This document shows, piece after piece, positions 8,925 through 16,626 of a stretch of 36,462 bases of DNA. Positions within the stretch are counted from its first letter, which is position 1, and every line of letters begins with the position of its first letter. Below the pieces are notes generated by a model. That model worked only from the letters and a program-made list of their open reading frames with translations, was not told the origin of the DNA and ran no database searches. Made by a program: the position numbers and the translations under genes. Source of the DNA: Candidatus Minthosoma equi (lineage in GTDB: Bacteria; Bacteroidota; Bacteroidia; Bacteroidales; Bacteroidaceae); contig JAGHUI010000066.1 in assembly GCA_018064885.1 (NCBI GenBank), forward strand, positions 1-36,462. The letters are read 5' to 3'.

Positions 8925-8985
8925 TTGTTGCTAAATTCATTTCCGCAGAACAATCCAAAGCGATATTCTGATATAGCAAAAATTT

Positions 8986-9077
8986 CATGCTAAGTGCATG
9001 CTGTTATTCAATTCGTGTGAATAACGTTATTCATGCTAATAACATGCAGTTATGCAGTTCGTATGAATAACCGCATT
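8986..9077. repeat. Two tandem 46-bp units with a 16-bp palindrome
   Basis: Units 8986-9031 and 9032-9077 agree at 36 of 46 positions. Both start CATGCTAA and contain TGAATAAC. A further CAT follows the second unit. The first unit spans a perfect 16-bp palindrome, TGAATAACGTTATTCA (9018-9033). It lies 34 bp beyond the end of the nuclease gene. Confidence 0.8.
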
Positions 9078-9111: not shown

Positions 9112-11313
9112 CTATAGCGTAGAGTTTATTCTCTGTTCCTTGCAATGCTTGAAGAACTCTTCCTTCGTTTTGCATACACCACGATAAGCGTAACGTACCA
9201 ATCCGAATTTTGCAGGCGCATCAAGCGTTGTCCAATCTGCAACATCAAATGTTATGCGAATAGGGTATTCTTCACCAGCAAGTTCTATCCATCTTGCAGA
9301 TTTCACCTTGTAGTAGCCTGTAATGTGACATCCATTGATGGCAGGAGCAATATACCTAACGCTCTGAATATCCTTGGTTTCCTCCATTCCCTTGCGTCCC
9401 ATGATTATAGTCGAAGCCTTGCCTGCAAGGATACTATCCACATCAGCATTCACACAATCGTCAATGGTCAGAATCATATAGGTAGGTTCCTTTGGTTCTG
9501 TATTGCTGTAGAACATTCCCTTTTGCGGAATTGCATCAGCGAGAATCTCTGTTGCAGCATTGTCGATAAGTCCCTTTATGAAATTCTCCAAGAGTGCGCG
9601 GTTGCGTTCATCTTTTGGTCGCAACGGGAAAGCACCGATGTTTACCTCGTCTATTGTTCTGTAGAAGCGTGACACCTCAACATCAGCAGGTTCACCATCG
9701 CCAGGGAACAGTATATAACCACCAATGACCTCCTTCTTCAACTCCTCTGAGCCACGGCCTTTATAGTAGATGGCGTCACGATACCGATGCATCTGATTTA
9801 TGGCATCCTCTGGAGGAGTATCTACTCCCCTTGAATCTCTGCCGTCAATACGATACTTGGCATCGAAGAGATACGTCATCTTCATGCCTTTCTGCATATC
9901 GTCTTTTGTGAGTTGCAGAACGATGTCTGGCTTCTGCGCAACGGTCGGCACATAGATATTCTCCATCGAGATGTTGTCGTTCTCCTTCTCCGTATGTTTT
10001 GGGTTATAGACAAGCTCTGCCAGCGCCACATTGTCCTTTTTGAACAAGATGCGTGAATGCTCTCCCTTGCCAAGTTCCCAAGTGAACATGCCGTTCATCT
10101 CCATACGGTTGCGGTGGTCTACTTCCGTATCTATACCCAACTGATTCTTAACAATATGACTCACCTCAATGAAGCACCATATCTCATATAGTGTTGCAAT
10201 GTCCTTTGACTGAAGCCGATAGATGCCATCATTCAGCGAGTATGCTCTGCGTAGCAAGTTCCATGTGCGATACACCTGACTATAGCCACTCGCCTTCTGC
10301 AAGATAAGACTCTCCTGTGTCAATCCCTTGAAACGTCCTACGGTACGGAAGAACGGATTATGCTGAAGCTGCTTCATTGTGGCAAGCATCGTCTTCATTT
10401 CTTCACGCATGGAGTCGCTGGTGTTTCTTATTGCCTCAATGCGATTCTTCAGAGTTTCGTACTTTGAAGTTATCTCTCCGAGCGCATATTTCAGAAAACG
10501 GTTTTCCTGAGTATCATTGCTTGGCGTCTGTTCCTCAACATGATACAGATGGGCAGGTTCGCGCCTATGCTCAGCAAGTTCGTTCTCAATGTTGCTGCTT
10601 ATTCTTCGCAACATATCAGCACGTTGGAAAGTGCTGATGTTGTGCAGCCGATGCCGAGGACGCTCAATGATGCTGCGTACAGCCTTTATGAACTTCTCCT
10701 GCTCTCCTTGAAATACGCTCCACCACACGAGATCAGGACGGTCGCCTTCCTTGTCGGGAGAGAAACCATGGAACGTGCGCTTCATGTAGTCAAGCGACAG
10801 CATTCGATACTCTGTCTCTATGTCCTCTATGATCTGTTTCCAATGCTCGTGGTAGTTCAGTTTCGTACTCAACACCTCATAGCCAAAAGTAAAAGTATGC
10901 GTTTGCCCCTCTATATTATATATAATGTGTATCTCGCTTCTACCAATGTCATTGCCATAGTTCAGGAAACCGCTCAGAATGCGTCCACGCTTGTGAAAGC
11001 TGAAACGCTCGTTGTCTGCTTGTAGCATAGAACAAAACCGGGCAGAGGTAACCTTTGGATTAGTGAACTCCACCCATATAGGGTAATCGGCATTGTCGAA
11101 GAAGATGGCAGGAGCAGGCTCTCCCATAGCGATCGGTTGTGGATTGTCACCCTCTGGCAATCTCTCTACAGACACAACACCTTCCGACCAAGTGTAGGTT
11201 GAAGTCAGATTCTCTTCTCCAACATTACGTTTGGCTTTCTCCCAGATGCCATCGGACTTCGTGCATTCGATGTACATCTCAAAGTCCTGGTGTACTATCT
11301 TTAGTAGTTCCAT
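9112..11313 (-). CDS. DUF2357/McrC-type PD-(D/E)xK nuclease of a McrBC-like restriction system
   Basis: 733 residues, the last gene of the five-gene island operon. The N-terminal ~400 residues resemble the DUF2357 region that links McrC-type nucleases to their motor, including ENRFLKYAL (271-279) and a helical, coiled-coil-like stalk (~280-320). The nuclease core follows: KPDIVLQL (PD at 462-463), then FDAKYR (D484-A485-K486), then QMHRYRDA (507-514). This gives the PD...DxK...Q order of catalytic PD-(D/E)xK enzymes. A C-terminal region (~610-733) has strand-rich sequence that could be a PUA/ASCH/EVE-like reader of modified bases; that part is inference. It starts 6 bp after the AAA+ motor gene, the usual McrB-McrC order. 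Predicted role: DNA cleavage when recruited by the motor. Confidence 0.83.
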   Translation of the reverse strand: MELLKIVHQDFEMYIECTKSDGIWEKAKRNVGEENLTSTYTWSEGVVSVERLPEGDNPQPIAMGEPAPAIFFDNADYPIWVEFTNPKVTSARFCSMLQADNERFSFHKRGRILSGFLNYGNDIGRSEIHIIYNIEGQTHTFTFGYEVLSTKLNYHEHWKQIIEDIETEYRMLSLDYMKRTFHGFSPDKEGDRPDLVWWSVFQGEQEKFIKAVRSIIERPRHRLHNISTFQRADMLRRISSNIENELAEHRREPAHLYHVEEQTPSNDTQENRFLKYALGEITSKYETLKNRIEAIRNTSDSMREEMKTMLATMKQLQHNPFFRTVGRFKGLTQESLILQKASGYSQVYRTWNLLRRAYSLNDGIYRLQSKDIATLYEIWCFIEVSHIVKNQLGIDTEVDHRNRMEMNGMFTWELGKGEHSRILFKKDNVALAELVYNPKHTEKENDNISMENIYVPTVAQKPDIVLQLTKDDMQKGMKMTYLFDAKYRIDGRDSRGVDTPPEDAINQMHRYRDAIYYKGRGSEELKKEVIGGYILFPGDGEPADVEVSRFYRTIDEVNIGAFPLRPKDERNRALLENFIKGLIDNAATEILADAIPQKGMFYSNTEPKEPTYMILTIDDCVNADVDSILAGKASTIIMGRKGMEETKDIQSVRYIAPAINGCHITGYYKVKSARWIELAGEEYPIRITFDVADWTTLDAPAKFGLVRYAYRGVCKTKEEFFKHCKEQRINSTL

Positions 11314-11319
11314 TGGTTA

Positions 11320-12933
11320 TTAGCTCCAGAAGCTTGTGTAGCCGCTTGCCAGTTTCTTTGTCATCTCATTGAGCTTAGCGAGAGAGATAGATTTGAATGT
11401 CTCATCAGTTTCTTCTATTCCGAACGGACCTTCAAAGACATTTTCAAGCTGTTCCTTGATTGCGTCACTCAATCCCTTCAGGAACTTCTCGCTCACCTTT
11501 GTCTCGTCTCCTTCAATACGAGATAGAATCTTCATGTTGGTGATTTCATCCAAGGCACGAGCTATGACATAGTTCTGGTCGAGTTCCTCACCATCTTCAT
11601 CCTTGTTGTAAGGCAGGTTGTTGACCACATAGAGCAGAAACTCGTTTCTCGTACGATAGGCAATCTTAAAAGGAGTGCCTTCGAGTTTGTCATTTACCGC
11701 TTTCAGGTAAGCAATCACCTTGTCGCATACAGCTTTGTGAGCAGAGTAAACATCCACGCCTTCAACACAAGTGCCGATAAGTTCTGCTGTTCCCAACTTA
11801 CCAATATTTTCATGTCTGTCCGTCAAACCGCCTTCCAGATCAACCTCATTCATCTCTATGGTCATGGCTCTGTCAAGCACCTTGCGTGAGAAAGAGAATG
11901 TTGTTTCGTCCATATTGACAGTGCCAATGACTATGAGGTTTTGTGGAATACAGATGCCATGTTTCAGAAATCTTGTTTTCACATCTTTATCAGATGTTAG
12001 TTCATTCACCAAGTTTCTGTACCAACCAACAGGTCTTTTCAAACCTAAATGATCTTCCTCATAACTTACACTCAGAATCGGGTCAGTCACAACTCCTTCT
12101 TCCGTTGCCTTTCTGCTTTCCACCACACTCAGATACTCAGCAAAGTATTGTTCCACTGGAGCAAGGTTCATCTCGTCAAGACAAAGGAAATAAGGCACAT
12201 CCTGTTCTTCCCATGCTCTCGCAATAAACTTAAGGAAATCACCTGCTACGAACGTCACTCCATTACCATCCTTGTCTGCACCTATTCGGCTCACATAACC
12301 CAGCAACTCACTCGAATCGTGCCAGTTAGGTTTCACCTGCACCATCTCAAAGTTCCTTGGCTTATGTTCCTTATATTCCTCGCTTCCTTCATCCCAGCAA
12401 GCACGAGCCAACTCACGTACGATTCTACTTTTGCCAGTGCCAGAGATTCCTGCAAGTAAGAGGAATGGCTTGGATTTGATGGCGGTAATGTAGGGGCGGT
12501 AGCTTGATTTTATTGTTTCGGTATCTTCAGGCTGTGTCTCTATACTTGACGACAACAACATATGCTTTTCATCTTTCTCAAACAACTCTAACAAGGCATC
12601 ATGCTTCTTATCGCTATTTGGTATACTACGAACACAGAAACTTCTACCTAACTTTTCGAATATCAATAGGTCACCTTCGTTTAATTTTTCGCCTTTCTCA
12701 GTAAGGAATTTGTTGAGTTTTGTACTCCATCTTAGATTTGTGGCTGGTTGAATTTCTATTATTTCAAAAGAACGCACATCGCTTATATGGCATACATTGA
12801 TGCCTGTGTTCTTTGAATTTTCAATATTATCCAAAGGAACATTGAAGAAATCTGTACCAACTTTCTTTGGTATGTCAATCTGGTTGCCAGATGCTTGGAA
12901 TCCAGATACCTTACAAACGTATATTACATTCAT
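11320..12933 (-). CDS. McrB-type AAA+ GTPase motor subunit
   Basis: 537 residues. The AAA+ core has Walker A GISGTGKS (162-169), Walker B FLCLDEMN (249-256), the McrB-type nucleotide signature GTVNMDE (337-343, in place of the classical MNTAD) and KVLDRA (351-356). McrB motors hydrolyse GTP, translocate on DNA and activate the McrC-like nuclease, whose gene follows 6 bp later. The N-terminal ~110 residues (ending in GDLLIFEKLGRSFCVRSI) lack the E. coli McrB N-domain. They are strand-rich and may be a B3-like DNA-binding domain as known for LlaJI.R1; this is inference from position and sequence feel. Target recognition probably resides there. Confidence 0.87.
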   Translation of the reverse strand: MNVIYVCKVSGFQASGNQIDIPKKVGTDFFNVPLDNIENSKNTGINVCHISDVRSFEIIEIQPATNLRWSTKLNKFLTEKGEKLNEGDLLIFEKLGRSFCVRSIPNSDKKHDALLELFEKDEKHMLLSSSIETQPEDTETIKSSYRPYITAIKSKPFLLLAGISGTGKSRIVRELARACWDEGSEEYKEHKPRNFEMVQVKPNWHDSSELLGYVSRIGADKDGNGVTFVAGDFLKFIARAWEEQDVPYFLCLDEMNLAPVEQYFAEYLSVVESRKATEEGVVTDPILSVSYEEDHLGLKRPVGWYRNLVNELTSDKDVKTRFLKHGICIPQNLIVIGTVNMDETTFSFSRKVLDRAMTIEMNEVDLEGGLTDRHENIGKLGTAELIGTCVEGVDVYSAHKAVCDKVIAYLKAVNDKLEGTPFKIAYRTRNEFLLYVVNNLPYNKDEDGEELDQNYVIARALDEITNMKILSRIEGDETKVSEKFLKGLSDAIKEQLENVFEGPFGIEETDETFKSISLAKLNEMTKKLASGYTSFWS

Positions 12934-12940
12934 ATCCTAA

Positions 12941-13582
12941 TCAATTAAAATGTTCAAAAAAGGCTTTCTTGTCATCACGATGATTCATTACATCAACACT
13001 ACCACTTTTGCTTACAAGAAGTTTCATGTCGTTGTCACTATCTACTTCGATAATATTTGAATACTCGTTGAGCACAAATTTCACACAACCGATATTGCCC
13101 ATTTCACCACCGAACAAAGCTGCTCCTGCAGTTGCAAGATTAGGTTTGTTTGGATGATTTTCTAGATAATCAACCAAACCATACAACAAGTTTATAGAAG
13201 GATAAACATTTATGAATCCCTTCTTCGTAAATGGATTTGGCACATAATACTTTTGTATCCACTTATACATATAAGTAGTTGCTTCCTCTCTCGTAATGTC
13301 ATGATCAAAACGAGGAATGTATTCCTTGCTGTCTTCGTAATACAAACCTAGTTGCAATGCCAACTGATAAGGGGTGCGAAAGAATGCGCCATTATAGAAC
13401 TTACCCATGTAATCACGGAAACGATCTTTTGAAAGTCGTGTTTTGGGTAAGAAGCTTACAAGTTCCACTACTGTATCCACAGAAGCAGTTCTCCATTTAC
13501 ACAATGGATCTGATTTCGTGTTAGGATATTTAACCATGGCACGACCACTTGGATTGTCTGTACTTGTTGAGTATCTTGCCAT
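12941..13582 (-). CDS. Unrecognised protein of the restriction island
   Basis: 213 residues with no family I recognise. It begins MARYSTSTDNPSGRAMVKYP and is basic at first, then helical. Visible motifs include WRTASVDTVVELVSFLPKTR, FRTPYQLALQLGLYY, HDITREEATTYMYKWIQKYY and NVYPSINLLYGLVDYL. The C-terminus is more acidic (IIEVDSDNDMKLL). There is no signal peptide, membrane helix, Walker motif or PD-(D/E)xK motif. It sits 5 bp after the second methyltransferase-like gene and 7 bp before the motor gene, so it is almost surely cotranslated with the system. By position it recalls the extra small restriction subunit of BsuMI-type systems (ydiR), but I cannot show homology. Target recognition, assembly or control are all possible. 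Confidence 0.8.
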   Translation of the reverse strand: MARYSTSTDNPSGRAMVKYPNTKSDPLCKWRTASVDTVVELVSFLPKTRLSKDRFRDYMGKFYNGAFFRTPYQLALQLGLYYEDSKEYIPRFDHDITREEATTYMYKWIQKYYVPNPFTKKGFINVYPSINLLYGLVDYLENHPNKPNLATAGAALFGGEMGNIGCVKFVLNEYSNIIEVDSDNDMKLLVSKSGSVDVMNHRDDKKAFFEHFN

Positions 13583-13587
13583 AATCG

Positions 13588-14556
13588 TTACTTATTATTA
13601 TTCCAATAGTTAATCAATGCCTGTTCTCGCTCTTCAATTTCCTGTACAAGTTCTTTCTTGAAGTGAACAGGATATTTTTTCTTTTCCAAAAGTTCATCAA
13701 CCTCAACAGAAGTGTATCGGATGCCACCAGTCATCTTGTCAAGTAACTCAAGGTAATCCTTACCCAAAATTTCCCATTCCTTCTCGTCAAGCAGATTTTC
13801 TTCAGCGGCAATCTGAATTGTCCATTGTTCTGCAATCACTCGTGCAATGTTGGGGAATGTCTTGCTTCTCCACTTCTGTCTTTCCACAGCAGATTTTGTT
13901 TTTGTGAATCCGTCAGAATACCATTTTGGCTGAGACTTGCCACTACCAAAGAAGATACGTTCTCCATGGTCATCCGTTTCTTTTGAAGGATGCAAAGGAC
14001 GAAGGTTCTTTATCCAAAGACAGGTATTCTTTGAATAAGGATCGCCAAACATGTAGGGTTGGATTGATTGGTCAGGCTTTCTCCAACGAGTGCTCATGAT
14101 ACCCACGGGATTCTCGATTGCGATACGCTTAACGTCAGCACCTGCAAGAAAGAGGAAGAAGTTTGCACCATCTTCTCTATCTTGTGCGCGATTAGGATAA
14201 CGAGGGTGAGGTCTTCTTTGTTCAAATGGTTTGTCCTTATCATCAGGATGATAATACCATTGTGCACCACTCACTGCAAGATAAGTGCATGGTGGGTGTC
14301 CAATCATAATATCCCATTCTCCATCGACCTTTGCTTGGGTACCATCCTGCAAAGTGAGGTCTGTTTTATTCAAAACGGTGCTCACATCATGGTTAAAGTG
14401 CCATTCTGGATGCGGCTCTGCTATGTCAGTTCCGAAAATAGTACCACTACAGTCAAAAAGGTCACAGCTATATGCATTATGCCCCATTGCGCGAAATGCA
14501 CGACAACAAGCTTGACTCTCTTCGCAAGCTATTAAAATGTTCAACTTCCTTTTCAT
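13588..14556 (-). CDS. Compact C5-cytosine DNA methyltransferase-like protein
   Basis: 322 residues. It has motif-I-like NILIACEESQACCRAFRAMG (6-25), a Pro-Cys catalytic motif GHPPCTYL with C90, and IENP (147-150) in place of the ENV motif. These three elements in order define a C5-cytosine methyltransferase fold. The usual long target-recognition domain and the motif IX/X region are not obvious; instead the C-terminus is helical and charged (DEKEWEILGKDYLELL, then EIEEREQALINYW). Similar compact proteins occur in phages. It lies 3 bp after the canonical methyltransferase gene. In LlaJI and BsuMI two methyltransferases serve one site, so it may modify the other strand or a second motif. It could also be a partner lacking independent specificity. 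Confidence 0.78.
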   Translation of the reverse strand: MKRKLNILIACEESQACCRAFRAMGHNAYSCDLFDCSGTIFGTDIAEPHPEWHFNHDVSTVLNKTDLTLQDGTQAKVDGEWDIMIGHPPCTYLAVSGAQWYYHPDDKDKPFEQRRPHPRYPNRAQDREDGANFFLFLAGADVKRIAIENPVGIMSTRWRKPDQSIQPYMFGDPYSKNTCLWIKNLRPLHPSKETDDHGERIFFGSGKSQPKWYSDGFTKTKSAVERQKWRSKTFPNIARVIAEQWTIQIAAEENLLDEKEWEILGKDYLELLDKMTGGIRYTSVEVDELLEKKKYPVHFKKELVQEIEEREQALINYWNNNK

Positions 14557-14559
14557 AGC

Positions 14560-15807
14560 TTACTTGGAGATTAAGACATCATACATTGCTTCTGCTATTC
14601 CTTTTGCAAACAATACAGGAACAGCATTACCTATCATCTTGTAGCAGTAGGGATTAGAGGCAACAAATTTGTAATCAAGAGGGAAAGATTGTAACAGAGC
14701 TGCTTCTCGAATGGTGATAGTACGGAGCTGCTCAATGTCAGGATGAATAAACATGTATCCATCCTTGTGCAAGTGAGCAACAACAGTAGGAGAAGGCTTG
14801 TCCCATTCTATGTTTCTATACTTGATGTGCTTAGAGGTGTGACCTGTAATCTTTGTATAGAAATCCATTTTCTCCTTTTGGGAAAACTTGTTCATGCTGT
14901 TGGCAAGCCATTCCGTAAAGAGCTTTTGGTCACGCTCCCCATGATATCGTGGAATATGTAGGTCGATAGTATCACCTTCTAACTGCTCATGCGAAACATT
15001 ACTTCTTCCTATCTTCTCTACTTTTGCCTTAGGAGTAAGCTTTGGCATATTTCCAATTGCGTCACGAACTGTCTTGTGAGGAGATTTGCTCTTGCGAGCT
15101 GTCAACGATTCATAGAATTCTTCTGTGTCAAAGTCGGAATCGTGTTTCGTCCCAATAATGATGATACGATTGCGCTTCTGAGGTACATCGTAGTCCTCTG
15201 CACAATACACAGAGTTCTTCAATGACTCAGGAGTACGAATGTTGTAACCGATAGCTTTGAAAGCCTCATAGATGCGTACACGCACAGGTGTATCACCAGG
15301 ACATGCACTAAGCAATCCGGGGACGTTTTCAAAAACAAAAGCTTTTGGCTTGAAGTGGTCAACAATCTTTACGAAACTCTCAAACAGATAGTTTCGGTAA
15401 TCATCTTTCATACCTGTTGGCGACTGAGCACGACCTGCGATAGAATATGCTTGACAAGGAGGTCCGCCGATTATCAAATCTACAGGACGGCCATTTACCA
15501 AAGCCTCTAAACCACCTTCTACAATGTCTGTATGGTTCTCCTTTTCATATGTCTTGCGTGTTTCTTCACTCCAATTTCCATGGATGAGTTCGTCTGTTTT
15601 TTGAACATCAAACTTGATAACACGTTTCTTCGCGTCAACTTCCGTGTGTCCCCATTTGTCAATCAATCGTTGACGTAAGGTGTTGATCATGGGAGATTCC
15701 CATTCCACATGAGCAATTCCTTCAAACTTACCAGTCTGTAGGAAACCTTCACTAAGACCTCCACATCCAGCAAACAAATCAATAAACGTGAACTTCTTTT
15801 CCTTCAC
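14560..15807 (-). CDS. DNA (cytosine-5-)-methyltransferase
   Basis: 415 residues, the first gene of the island operon. Canonical C5 motifs: I FIDLFAGCGG (8-17), IV GGPPCQAYS with catalytic C118, VI ENVPG (160-164), VIII QKRNRIIIIG, then a target-recognition region (~250-345), and IX/X TIREAALLQSFP and MIGNAVPV near the end. It methylates cytosine at C5 using SAM and should protect host sites from the motor-nuclease. The start is taken as GTG at 15807 (MKEKKFTFIDL). The frame stays open for ten more codons upstream, into the arm of the hairpin at 15826-15903, so a longer form with an unusual start cannot be excluded. Its recognition site cannot be read from the sequence. Confidence 0.9.
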   Translation of the reverse strand: MKEKKFTFIDLFAGCGGLSEGFLQTGKFEGIAHVEWESPMINTLRQRLIDKWGHTEVDAKKRVIKFDVQKTDELIHGNWSEETRKTYEKENHTDIVEGGLEALVNGRPVDLIIGGPPCQAYSIAGRAQSPTGMKDDYRNYLFESFVKIVDHFKPKAFVFENVPGLLSACPGDTPVRVRIYEAFKAIGYNIRTPESLKNSVYCAEDYDVPQKRNRIIIIGTKHDSDFDTEEFYESLTARKSKSPHKTVRDAIGNMPKLTPKAKVEKIGRSNVSHEQLEGDTIDLHIPRYHGERDQKLFTEWLANSMNKFSQKEKMDFYTKITGHTSKHIKYRNIEWDKPSPTVVAHLHKDGYMFIHPDIEQLRTITIREAALLQSFPLDYKFVASNPYCYKMIGNAVPVLFAKGIAEAMYDVLISK

Positions 15808-15825
15808 TTTCGCTTTATCGTTTAT

Positions 15826-15903
15826 AAAGCGTGGAGGCTAAAACACAAAACTGCGCAGCTCTGGACGGGCCTTCTTGGAGTTCATGCAATAGCCGTCCAC
15901 GCT
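15826..15903 (-). repeat. Hairpin element 1 next to the methyltransferase start
   Basis: AGCGTGGAGGCTA at 15828-15840 pairs with TAGCCGTCCACGCT (15890-15903), a 13-bp stem with one bulged G, enclosing ~49 nt. Element 2 (16146-16221) shares the 10-nt left end AAAGCGTGGA and the 13-nt right end AGCCGTCCACGCT, but its interior is different. The stem foot lies 18 bp upstream of the GTG start at 15807. Confidence 0.8.
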
Positions 15904-15991
15904 GTGATTAGTAATTTCTTTTCACAACGGGACAGCGATGCATCATACTTCTCCAAGAATTCTTTTGGTAGATTGTCCAGATCTGCGCAGT
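15850..15991. repeat. 142-bp imperfect inverted repeat overlapping element 1
   Basis: ACTGCGCAGCTCTGGAC (15850-15866) recurs inverted at 15975-15991 with 16 of 17 matches. Inside, TTCTTGGAG (15872-15880) is matched by CTCCAAGAA (15951-15959), and ATGCA (15884-15888) by TGCAT (15939-15943). The left arm lies inside the loop of hairpin element 1, so both folds cannot form on one strand at once. Confidence 0.75.
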
Positions 15992-16145
15992 TAGAGAATG
16001 ACGACTTACTCTCTGTCGAGTACGCTACCTATAGGGATAGCAGCCTATTTTGTTTTACGTGATGCTTTTGAGCATTATACGTGTTGTATCTGCATTATCT
16101 GTGGTGTGTGGGCAAATGCACAAGAGCCTATGAATGAAGACAGAA

Positions 16146-16221
16146 AAAGCGTGGAACGCTTCTTATCTTCAACCAAAGGCCCTGAGAAATGCCCACTATA
16201 TACAGATAAGCCGTCCACGCT
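16146..16221 (-). repeat. Hairpin element 2
   Basis: AGCGTGGA (16148-16155) and TCCACGCT (16214-16221) form a perfect outer 8-bp stem. Inside it, CTTATC (near 16162) pairs with GATAAG (16205-16210), with a small internal loop between. The ends match element 1 and the interior does not, as expected for a structured end pair with a free interior. Confidence 0.75.
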
Positions 16222-16364
16222 AAATGCGCAGACGTTCTTGTTCTACTGTATATAGTTGCTTCTGAATCAGATAAAGAATTTCTCAGGTTCTTGGTTGATT
16301 CGATAACACAGAACGTTGTTAGTAAAAATATGTCTGTCAAAGGGCATAAATCCCAATGGCATTG

Positions 16365-16372
16365 CAAAGATA
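16365..16372 (-). promoter_or_regulatory. Candidate -7 box for the restriction operon
   Basis: The minus strand reads TATCTTTG followed by CA, a full match to TAnnTTTG. It is the only good match I saw on that strand between the EnvC-like gene and the first methyltransferase. A transcript starting here would have a leader of about 550 nt containing both hairpin elements. Confidence 0.45.
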
Positions 16373-16394
16373 AACAAAAGTATCAAAACAAAAG

Positions 16395-16425
16395 CACCGA
16401 TAAGCAGAAAATTTGCTTATCGGTG
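16395..16425 (-). terminator. Terminator downstream of the dut-to-EnvC operon
   Basis: CACCGATAAGCA (16395-16406) and TGCTTATCGGTG (16414-16425) make a perfect 12-bp stem with a 7-nt loop. Read leftward it is followed by CTTTTGTTTTGATACTTTTG, a T-rich tail. It separates the EnvC-like gene's transcript from the restriction operon. Confidence 0.75.
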
Positions 16426-16440
16426 ATAAAATAATTTCCA

Positions 16441-16550
16441 AAGGGTAAATGATGGGTAAGTGATGTGGTAAGTGTTGCAAAAACACTTACCACATACAAT
16501 ATGCTGACATATAAGATGTTACTTCAAAAAGGGTAAGTGGTAACATCTTT
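16441..16550. repeat. Cluster of GGTAAGTG repeats with two hairpins
   Basis: GGTAAGTG or close variants occur near 16443, 16455, 16467 and 16532, and inverted at 16484. ATGTGGTAAGTGT (16463-16475) and ACACTTACCACAT (16483-16495) form a perfect 13-bp stem with a 7-nt loop. AAGATGTTAC (16513-16522) pairs with GTAACATCTT (16540-16549). Confidence 0.75.
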
Positions 16551-16626
16551 TCTTAAAATCTTTATTTTATTTGAGAATGCCGCATGCTAAAATGAAATTC
16601 GCCACGGTGTAGCGTATTTCAGCTTA

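Follow-up and report, generated by a model that had tools for sequence, protein, structure and literature searches.

A putative split-off specificity subunit in a probable motor-driven restriction-modification operon of Candidatus Minthosoma equi

A 36,462-nucleotide stretch of Candidatus Minthosoma equi DNA (assembly GCA_018064885.1, contig JAGHUI010000066.1, positions 1–36,462; hereafter the window, by which we mean this whole stretch) contains a five-gene operon that is likely to be a motor-driven restriction-modification system cutting DNA without the system's own methylation, with a small protein, P3, as its predicted split-off specificity subunit. The principle is known, with LlaJI and PcaI as precedents. 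The novelty lies in a family of P3 domains that can be exchanged between machines, in the split form that accompanies an NxD-type motor, and in a second methyltransferase drawn from a family abundant in viral contigs. The architecture of the operon, the fusions of P3 in related loci, its co-divergence with methyltransferases, the catalytic motifs of its partners and purifying selection are observed directly; binding, translocation and cutting are predicted. The presumed reader bears on the open question of how McrBC-like machines turn from methylated to unmethylated targets. It is compact and occurs as a free protein, fused to either of two McrB-like motor types, or fused to HNH nucleases, which makes that question directly testable; the free P3 is separable, such that its target binding can be assayed and the protein removed with the motor untouched. 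A likely role is thereby assigned to a domain with no convincing match in Pfam, NCBIfam or PADLOC. The features discussed are as follows.

14560..15807, minus strand: M1, C5-cytosine DNA methyltransferase of 415 amino acids with a GTG start (PF00145, TIGR00675).
13588..14556, minus strand: M2, compact second methyltransferase of 322 amino acids (phrog_757).
12941..13582, minus strand: P3, putative stand-alone specificity (target-reading) subunit of 213 amino acids, its role suggested by the fusions of its relatives.
11320..12933, minus strand: McrB-like AAA+ motor of 537 amino acids (weak AAA and McrB matches, motifs).
12499..12933, minus strand: N-terminal ∼145 amino acids of the motor, a possible second DNA-reading module (comparison with locus L006).
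9112..11313, minus strand: nuclease of 733 amino acids, DUF2357 and PD-(D/E)xK (PF09823, PF04411).
15808..16626, no strand assigned: presumed promoter region, ∼820 bp upstream of M1 with inverted repeats and no recognised gene.

The five open reading frames (ORFs) spanning 9112–15807 are separated by 3, 5, 7 and 6 bp, as a first-pass annotation made from the sequence had described, and the families it named for four of the products hold up. M1 matches PF00145 in Pfam (1.2e-59) and the TIGR00675 dcm model in NCBIfam (4.8e-54), and has the C5 catalytic motifs FAGCGG, GGPPCQ, ENV and GNAVP. M2, annotated as a second C5-methyltransferase-like protein, matches the PHROGs family phrog_757 'DNA methyltransferase' (5.2e-57), a profile that also touches the catalytic region of M1 (E 0.0042), and its HPPC and ENP motifs are kept in all three sequences of alignment A4; M2 is probably of the C5 type, which would give the operon the two C5-cytosine methyltransferases of a LlaJI-type system. 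The motor has weak Pfam AAA matches, all below the Pfam cut-offs, a match to the PADLOC candidate-defence model PDC-M26A (1.8e-38), and matches to PRK11331 McrB in NCBIfam (1.7e-4) and to solved McrB (2.3e-3), with a Walker A motif GISGTGKS, a Walker B motif FLCLDEMN, and a sensor, GTVNMDE, that is of the NxD type and not the NxxD type of LlaJI's McrB GTPase motor. The nuclease combines DUF2357 (PF09823, 6.4e-45) with PDDEXK_7 (PF04411, 6.9e-35) and has the catalytic pattern KPD...DAK, a motif present in 8/8 nucleases compared. RE_LlaJI (PF09563) has no match in this nuclease or elsewhere in its own genome; among the controls a match was seen in Bacillus subtilis.

The 213-residue P3 was described as unrecognised, and with respect to profile libraries this stands: the window P3 has no match at E≤1 in Pfam, PADLOC, NCBIfam or PHROGs, and none of the 18 P3 members of alignment A2 has a convincing match in the first three of these libraries (for PHROGs the query was the window P3). 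Several weak matches were judged to be chance, namely those to Pfam Sec3_CC (two members, 0.0099) together with three others in Pfam, to NCBIfam S1_dom_Ygs (two members, 0.0027) together with two others, and to the PADLOC models oMTase (two members, 0.0013) and NDT_II-A (L008, 0.0024). P3 can nonetheless be placed through the fusions of its relatives. These are present in 3/295 genomes of the order, 3/395 of the phylum and 9/201 of the family (the Minthosoma genome itself being included in each count), and additional loci came from genome contigs (15) and viral contigs (2), on some contigs already seen. The window P3 has no match in plasmid or phage records, nor does the P3 of L013 in plasmid records or that of L014 in phage records. 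For comparison we assembled 25 systems, counting duplicates once (L004 is L013, L050 is L007, and L038 has the coordinates of L017) and setting aside L005 and L010, where the P3-motor frame is interrupted.

Three states of P3 are found among the 25 systems. First, it is a free protein in two, the window and L006. Secondly, it forms the N-terminus of a McrB-like motor in 19, of which 14 are NxxD motors and five are NxD motors. The NxD fusions are partnered by DUF2357 nucleases, the contig of L051 stopping before the nuclease; RE_LlaJI partner nucleases were assigned by Pfam in L011 (7.1e-53), L012 (7.8e-36) and L013 (6.7e-7), and Pfam assigned no RE_LlaJI to the partner in L020, the labels resting on position for L016 and L018 and on BLAST for those without a Pfam test. 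In L054, for example, P3 and motor are joined in one 624-amino acid protein. In a further system outside the 25, L005/L010, a P3 is followed by a stop, and then by an NxD-type motor and DUF2357, with L049 providing the uninterrupted counterpart of that fusion. Thirdly, P3 forms the N-terminus of an HNH nuclease in four systems (e.g. L009, with an HNH_2 match of 4.2e-12); because these contain a nuclease, and BLAST found no motor-like ORF in the examined flanks of any of the four, P3 is likely to be the reader there. Ten positions are invariant in all 25 P3 domains (window numbering): C28, P46, Q73, A75, Y81, F92, Y104, W108, N116 and P117.

All 25 P3 systems (25/25) have a methyltransferase gene upstream in the same orientation, at a distance of no more than 150 bp in 19 and with one ORF between in six; its C5 type was assigned by Pfam or NCBIfam for M1, the L006 M1 and L004/L013, and by BLAST similarity in the other systems. 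Among 20 motor-bearing systems (the four HNH fusions, L005/L010, and L051, which is 99% like L052, being left out), systems with similar methyltransferases tend to have similar P3 domains (Spearman 0.57), a relation that does not hold for the motors (0.03); the partial correlations are 0.61 with the methyltransferases (0/5000 permutations) and −0.28 with the motor. The clearest pair is L055 and L057, whose P3 domains are 65%, methyltransferases 78% and motors 17% identical. P3 has thus diverged in step with the methyltransferases and not with the motor, with exceptions given below. In the P3 tree the window, L006 and L054, all with M1 and M2, group together with moderate support (73/90, not starred), and a single clade of the seven P3s with NxD motors (the window, L006, L049, L051, L052, L054 and L055) is rejected with a p-value of 3.8e-65 in the approximately unbiased test, most of which may be driven by L055 beyond its very long branch. 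We interpret P3 as a probable sequence reader, because this domain is found on different machines, is usually retained together with its methyltransferase, and in the systems that lack a visible motor is part of an HNH nuclease.

The same data bear on the proposal that the operon is a Type IV, McrBC-like modification-dependent nuclease, with P3 reading methylated cytosine and the methyltransferases acting as unrelated neighbours or decoys. McrBC-type motors and DUF2357 nucleases are indeed known from Type IV systems, according to the available part of one account (PMC11090510), and six of the seven P3-less DUF2357 loci read in the order pair DUF2357 and AAA genes with no C5-methyltransferase recognisable by BLAST (one of the six, L036, is a 3.9-kb contig end, and other methyltransferase types were not sought). 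The seventh, L037, has two C5-methyltransferases beside a motor with the motif GTVNMDETT, which shares 39% identity with the window motor, and a nuclease that shares 30% with its window counterpart. However, the same-strand methyltransferase in every P3 system and the co-divergence argue against this proposal, and a nuclease that reads and cuts at 5-methylcytosine beside active C5-methyltransferases would attack its own host. The modified-base readers DUF3578, EVE and YTH have no Pfam match at E≤1 in the motor or P3, and these families are absent from the Pfam families listed at E≤0.1 for the 18 P3 members. We therefore consider a Type IV system quite unlikely, and the first-pass alternative of a McrBC module that sits beside methyltransferases by accident is disfavoured by the contrast between 25/25 P3 systems and 1/7 P3-less loci.

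The organization of the window operon is shared by an uncultured Prevotellaceae (L006), in which all five genes recur in unchanged order, with BLAST identities of 79% (M1), 87% (M2), 77% (P3), 74% (motor) and 69% (nuclease); a separate alignment of the nucleases gives 62% over 711 aligned residues. Ratios of nonsynonymous to synonymous differences (pN/pS) against L006 are 0.18, 0.11, 0.22, 0.21 and 0.32 from M1 to the nuclease, with synonymous sites near saturation, and indicate purifying selection on all five genes. Conservation in L006 and purifying selection together imply that the five-gene unit is not a chance arrangement and that the P3/motor split is not an error of a single assembly; the conservation of the unit in other genomes, raised as a check in the first-pass annotation, is thus seen in L006 and, in a form where P3 and the motor are a single protein, in L054. 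These comparisons are also pertinent to whether the operon is a degraded and inactive remnant of a larger system, in which P3 became split from the motor by decay. Interrupted genes do occur in related loci, both in L005/L010, where a stop codon separates P3 from the motor, and in the L006 M1, whose frame is broken near the C-terminal motifs; yet the window genes are complete, separated by 3–7 bp and equipped with their catalytic motifs, and L006 has the same split at pN/pS of 0.11–0.32, making decay a very improbable explanation.

From residue 101 the window motor is 62% identical to the motor half of the L052 fusion, and its N-terminal ∼145 amino acids could be a second DNA-reading module. 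L006 retains this segment at 67% identity, whereas nothing similar was seen in the P3-motor fusions of the NxD type; among the data searched it occurs in the window and L006 alone. P3 might accordingly be a structural or loading adaptor, with targets read by the motor's own N-terminus, as both the conservation of this extra segment in L006 and its lack of counterparts in the NxD fusions would allow. We regard this as unlikely: P3 is found on HNH nucleases in four systems where the search of the flanks gave no motor-like ORF, its divergence goes with the methyltransferases and not with the motor, and the first 114 residues of the motor are present in 1/201 genomes of the family, its own, matching no family above cut-off (nor any solved chain at E≤10). 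A search of viral contigs gave 45 pattern-matching stretches and no relatives of the N-terminus. L054 encodes a 127-amino acid ORF (L054:8278–8661) between M2 and the P3-motor fusion, and a reciprocal swap with the window motor's N-terminus is attractive by eye; we rejected it as sequence evidence, the BLAST E value being 0.56, the score being reached by 1232/2000 shuffles for the window and 811/2000 for L006, and the hhalign probability being 0.2%. An elaborate version would have two separate readers matched to the two methyltransferases, the free P3 and the motor's N-terminus, possibly reversed in L054 with P3 on the motor and the 127-residue protein free; readers would be interchangeable, attached to the motor in one system and free in another, and P3 would be a plug-in targeting subunit for unrelated nucleases. 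We consider this scheme doubtful.

Several observations weigh against P3 as the specificity subunit. Its DNA binding is a prediction, and its profile finds no credible chain among solved structures (best E 0.73, unrelated), although the B3 domain of Helicobacter pylori LlaJI.R1 is solved, as seen in the available part of that report (PMC7680126). The motor's own 145 residues could be the real reader. The co-divergence analysis controls for shared ancestry of the hosts only through the motor, and there are discordant pairs: methyltransferases 90% and P3 37% identical in L019 and L053, 83% and 37% in L054 and the window, and, in the other direction, 62% and 81% in L007 and L008. Counting the fewest changes on the P3 tree (five for motor type, six for methyltransferase class) does not discriminate. 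Finally, the likeness of PcaI and BsuMI to the window operon is drawn from descriptions of those systems.

With P3 as its probable reader, the operon is proposed to work as follows. M1 and M2, whose families are clear and whose activity and target are predicted, would methylate cytosines in a target sequence of the host genome. P3 would bind the unmethylated target on incoming DNA and recruit or load the AAA+ motor, by analogy with its fusions and with R1.LlaJI. The motor would form a ring driven by nucleoside triphosphates and activated by the nuclease through its DUF2357 part, and this ring would move along or remodel the DNA until the PD-(D/E)xK domain cuts, as suggested by McrBC and PcaI; the general McrBC mechanism underlying the scheme is described in the available parts of PMC7680126, PMC12707154 and PMC11090510. 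Methylated self sites would not be bound by P3, and the host would be spared.

M2 has abundant relatives in viral contigs, at least 461 of them confirmed. Among the best 80 of these at least 461, a second C5-methyltransferase-like ORF is nearby in five and BLAST finds a P3 or a motor/nuclease of the window kind near none; the closest, L074, is 62% identical over residues 1–320 with neighbouring ORFs unrelated to the operon. Because these relatives are abundant and mostly solitary, M2 looks to have been recruited from a phage-type methyltransferase. L054, with an M1 85% and an M2 81% identical to those of the window, shows that the M1–M2 pair can persist while the rest of the system diverges.

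The operon has a CvfB-type gene on one side and, on the other, a gene for an M23 peptidase that is present in 21/21 genomes of the genus (E≤0.001). In two of 11 M23 loci from other genomes (L067 and L068) CvfB adjoins M23 and the operon is absent; CvfB was not found within the 1.5-kb flanks of the remaining nine. This arrangement fits a variable insertion between the CvfB and M23 genes, with no date implied. The long non-coding leader at 15808–16626 contains an 18-nucleotide inverted repeat (15849–15866/15975–15992) and a 13-mer repeated 318 bp apart, and has no Rfam match that reaches the gathering score. Two tandem 46-nucleotide copies, 78% alike, directly follow the nuclease gene at 8984–9075, with further inverted repeats down to 8551.

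The related loci have additional features. An HNH-nuclease-like gene lies between the methyltransferase and P3-motor genes at L005:1661–2638, L011:6394–7359, L018:7941–8945, L049:6770–7774 and L053:8617–9594 (HNH_2 being checked for L018), and in these five a single methyltransferase may give protection from two separate nucleases. L055:4423–13300 is a composite operon with two M1-like methyltransferases, an NgoFVII-type nuclease (PLD and B3-like), a P3-motor fusion, a YhcG nuclease and a DUF2357-type nuclease. Genes for Vsr-type mismatch endonucleases are located beside P3 operons in L006 (13904–14533, by Pfam) and, by eye, in L018, L049, L050 and L052–L056; no such gene was recognised beside the operon of the window. 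Two different P3 systems are accompanied by three-gene modules that look alike by eye (L054:10873–14457 and L056:12352–15934), with one gene being DUF6339 in L054; this is perhaps another defence module. Small helix-turn-helix-like ORFs, perhaps controllers, are seen by eye upstream of methyltransferases at L021:3856–4062, L052:10724–10939 and L057:4907–5167. In a Mycobacteroides plasmid (L072:5326–7020) a 161-amino acid protein, possibly another split reader, directly precedes a 402-amino acid motor, with a DUF2357 gene and a methyltransferase close by.

Comparison with known systems suggests that the operon belongs among those that restrict unmethylated DNA. We recognised no description of a P3-like subunit in a shallow literature search with little subscription coverage. 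It departs from McrBC Type IV systems, in which the motor carries a modified-base reader such as DUF3578, EVE or YTH. The methyltransferase-associated McrBC branch with NxD motors (Bell et al. 2024) is among its nearest counterparts, sharing a DUF2357-type nuclease, the association with methyltransferases, and the NMDE sequence (NxD followed by E), which both the window and L006 motors have; the available part of that paper outlines the branch, defers it to a later publication, and names no P3-like subunit (PMC11090510). BsuMI and LlaI, by description, likewise have three restriction genes. Their motors of 337–343 residues lack the N-terminal half and belong to three-ORF cassettes, as given in the available text of PMC1459862, whereas the window motor of 537 residues has its own ∼145-residue N-terminus alongside a third protein; the third protein of the BsuMI and LlaI cassettes is presumably the reader. 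PcaI of Pectobacterium, in the part of its description available (PMC8989522), comprises a methyltransferase, an AAA+ protein and a DUF2357 nuclease, restricts unmethylated DNA and has CCNGG methylation. The side-by-side DUF2357 nuclease, AAA+ motor and C5-type methyltransferase of the window match that architecture; PcaI differs in having three genes and one methyltransferase, with a DNA-binding domain assumed to lie within the motor and no separate reader described in that part of the text. A set of DUF2357 nuclease, AAA+ motor and methyltransferase is therefore not in itself new; of the new subtype suggested in the first-pass annotation, the P3 family, its split form and its exchange among motors stand as novel, together with M2. 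The label LlaJI/BsuMI-like similarly holds in part, in that the operon probably works alike but is not a strict LlaJI member, having a DUF2357/PDDEXK_7 nuclease in place of RE_LlaJI, an NxD motor, and a presumed reader that is a separate protein. With LlaJI (Lactococcus lactis; Type II) it shares two methyltransferases, a McrB-like motor and a PD-(D/E)xK nuclease, and R1.LlaJI is the sole specificity subunit there, according to the available text (PMC1459862); the reader of LlaJI goes with the motor, just as the P3 domain in the window's relatives is found on the motor beside RE_LlaJI nucleases.

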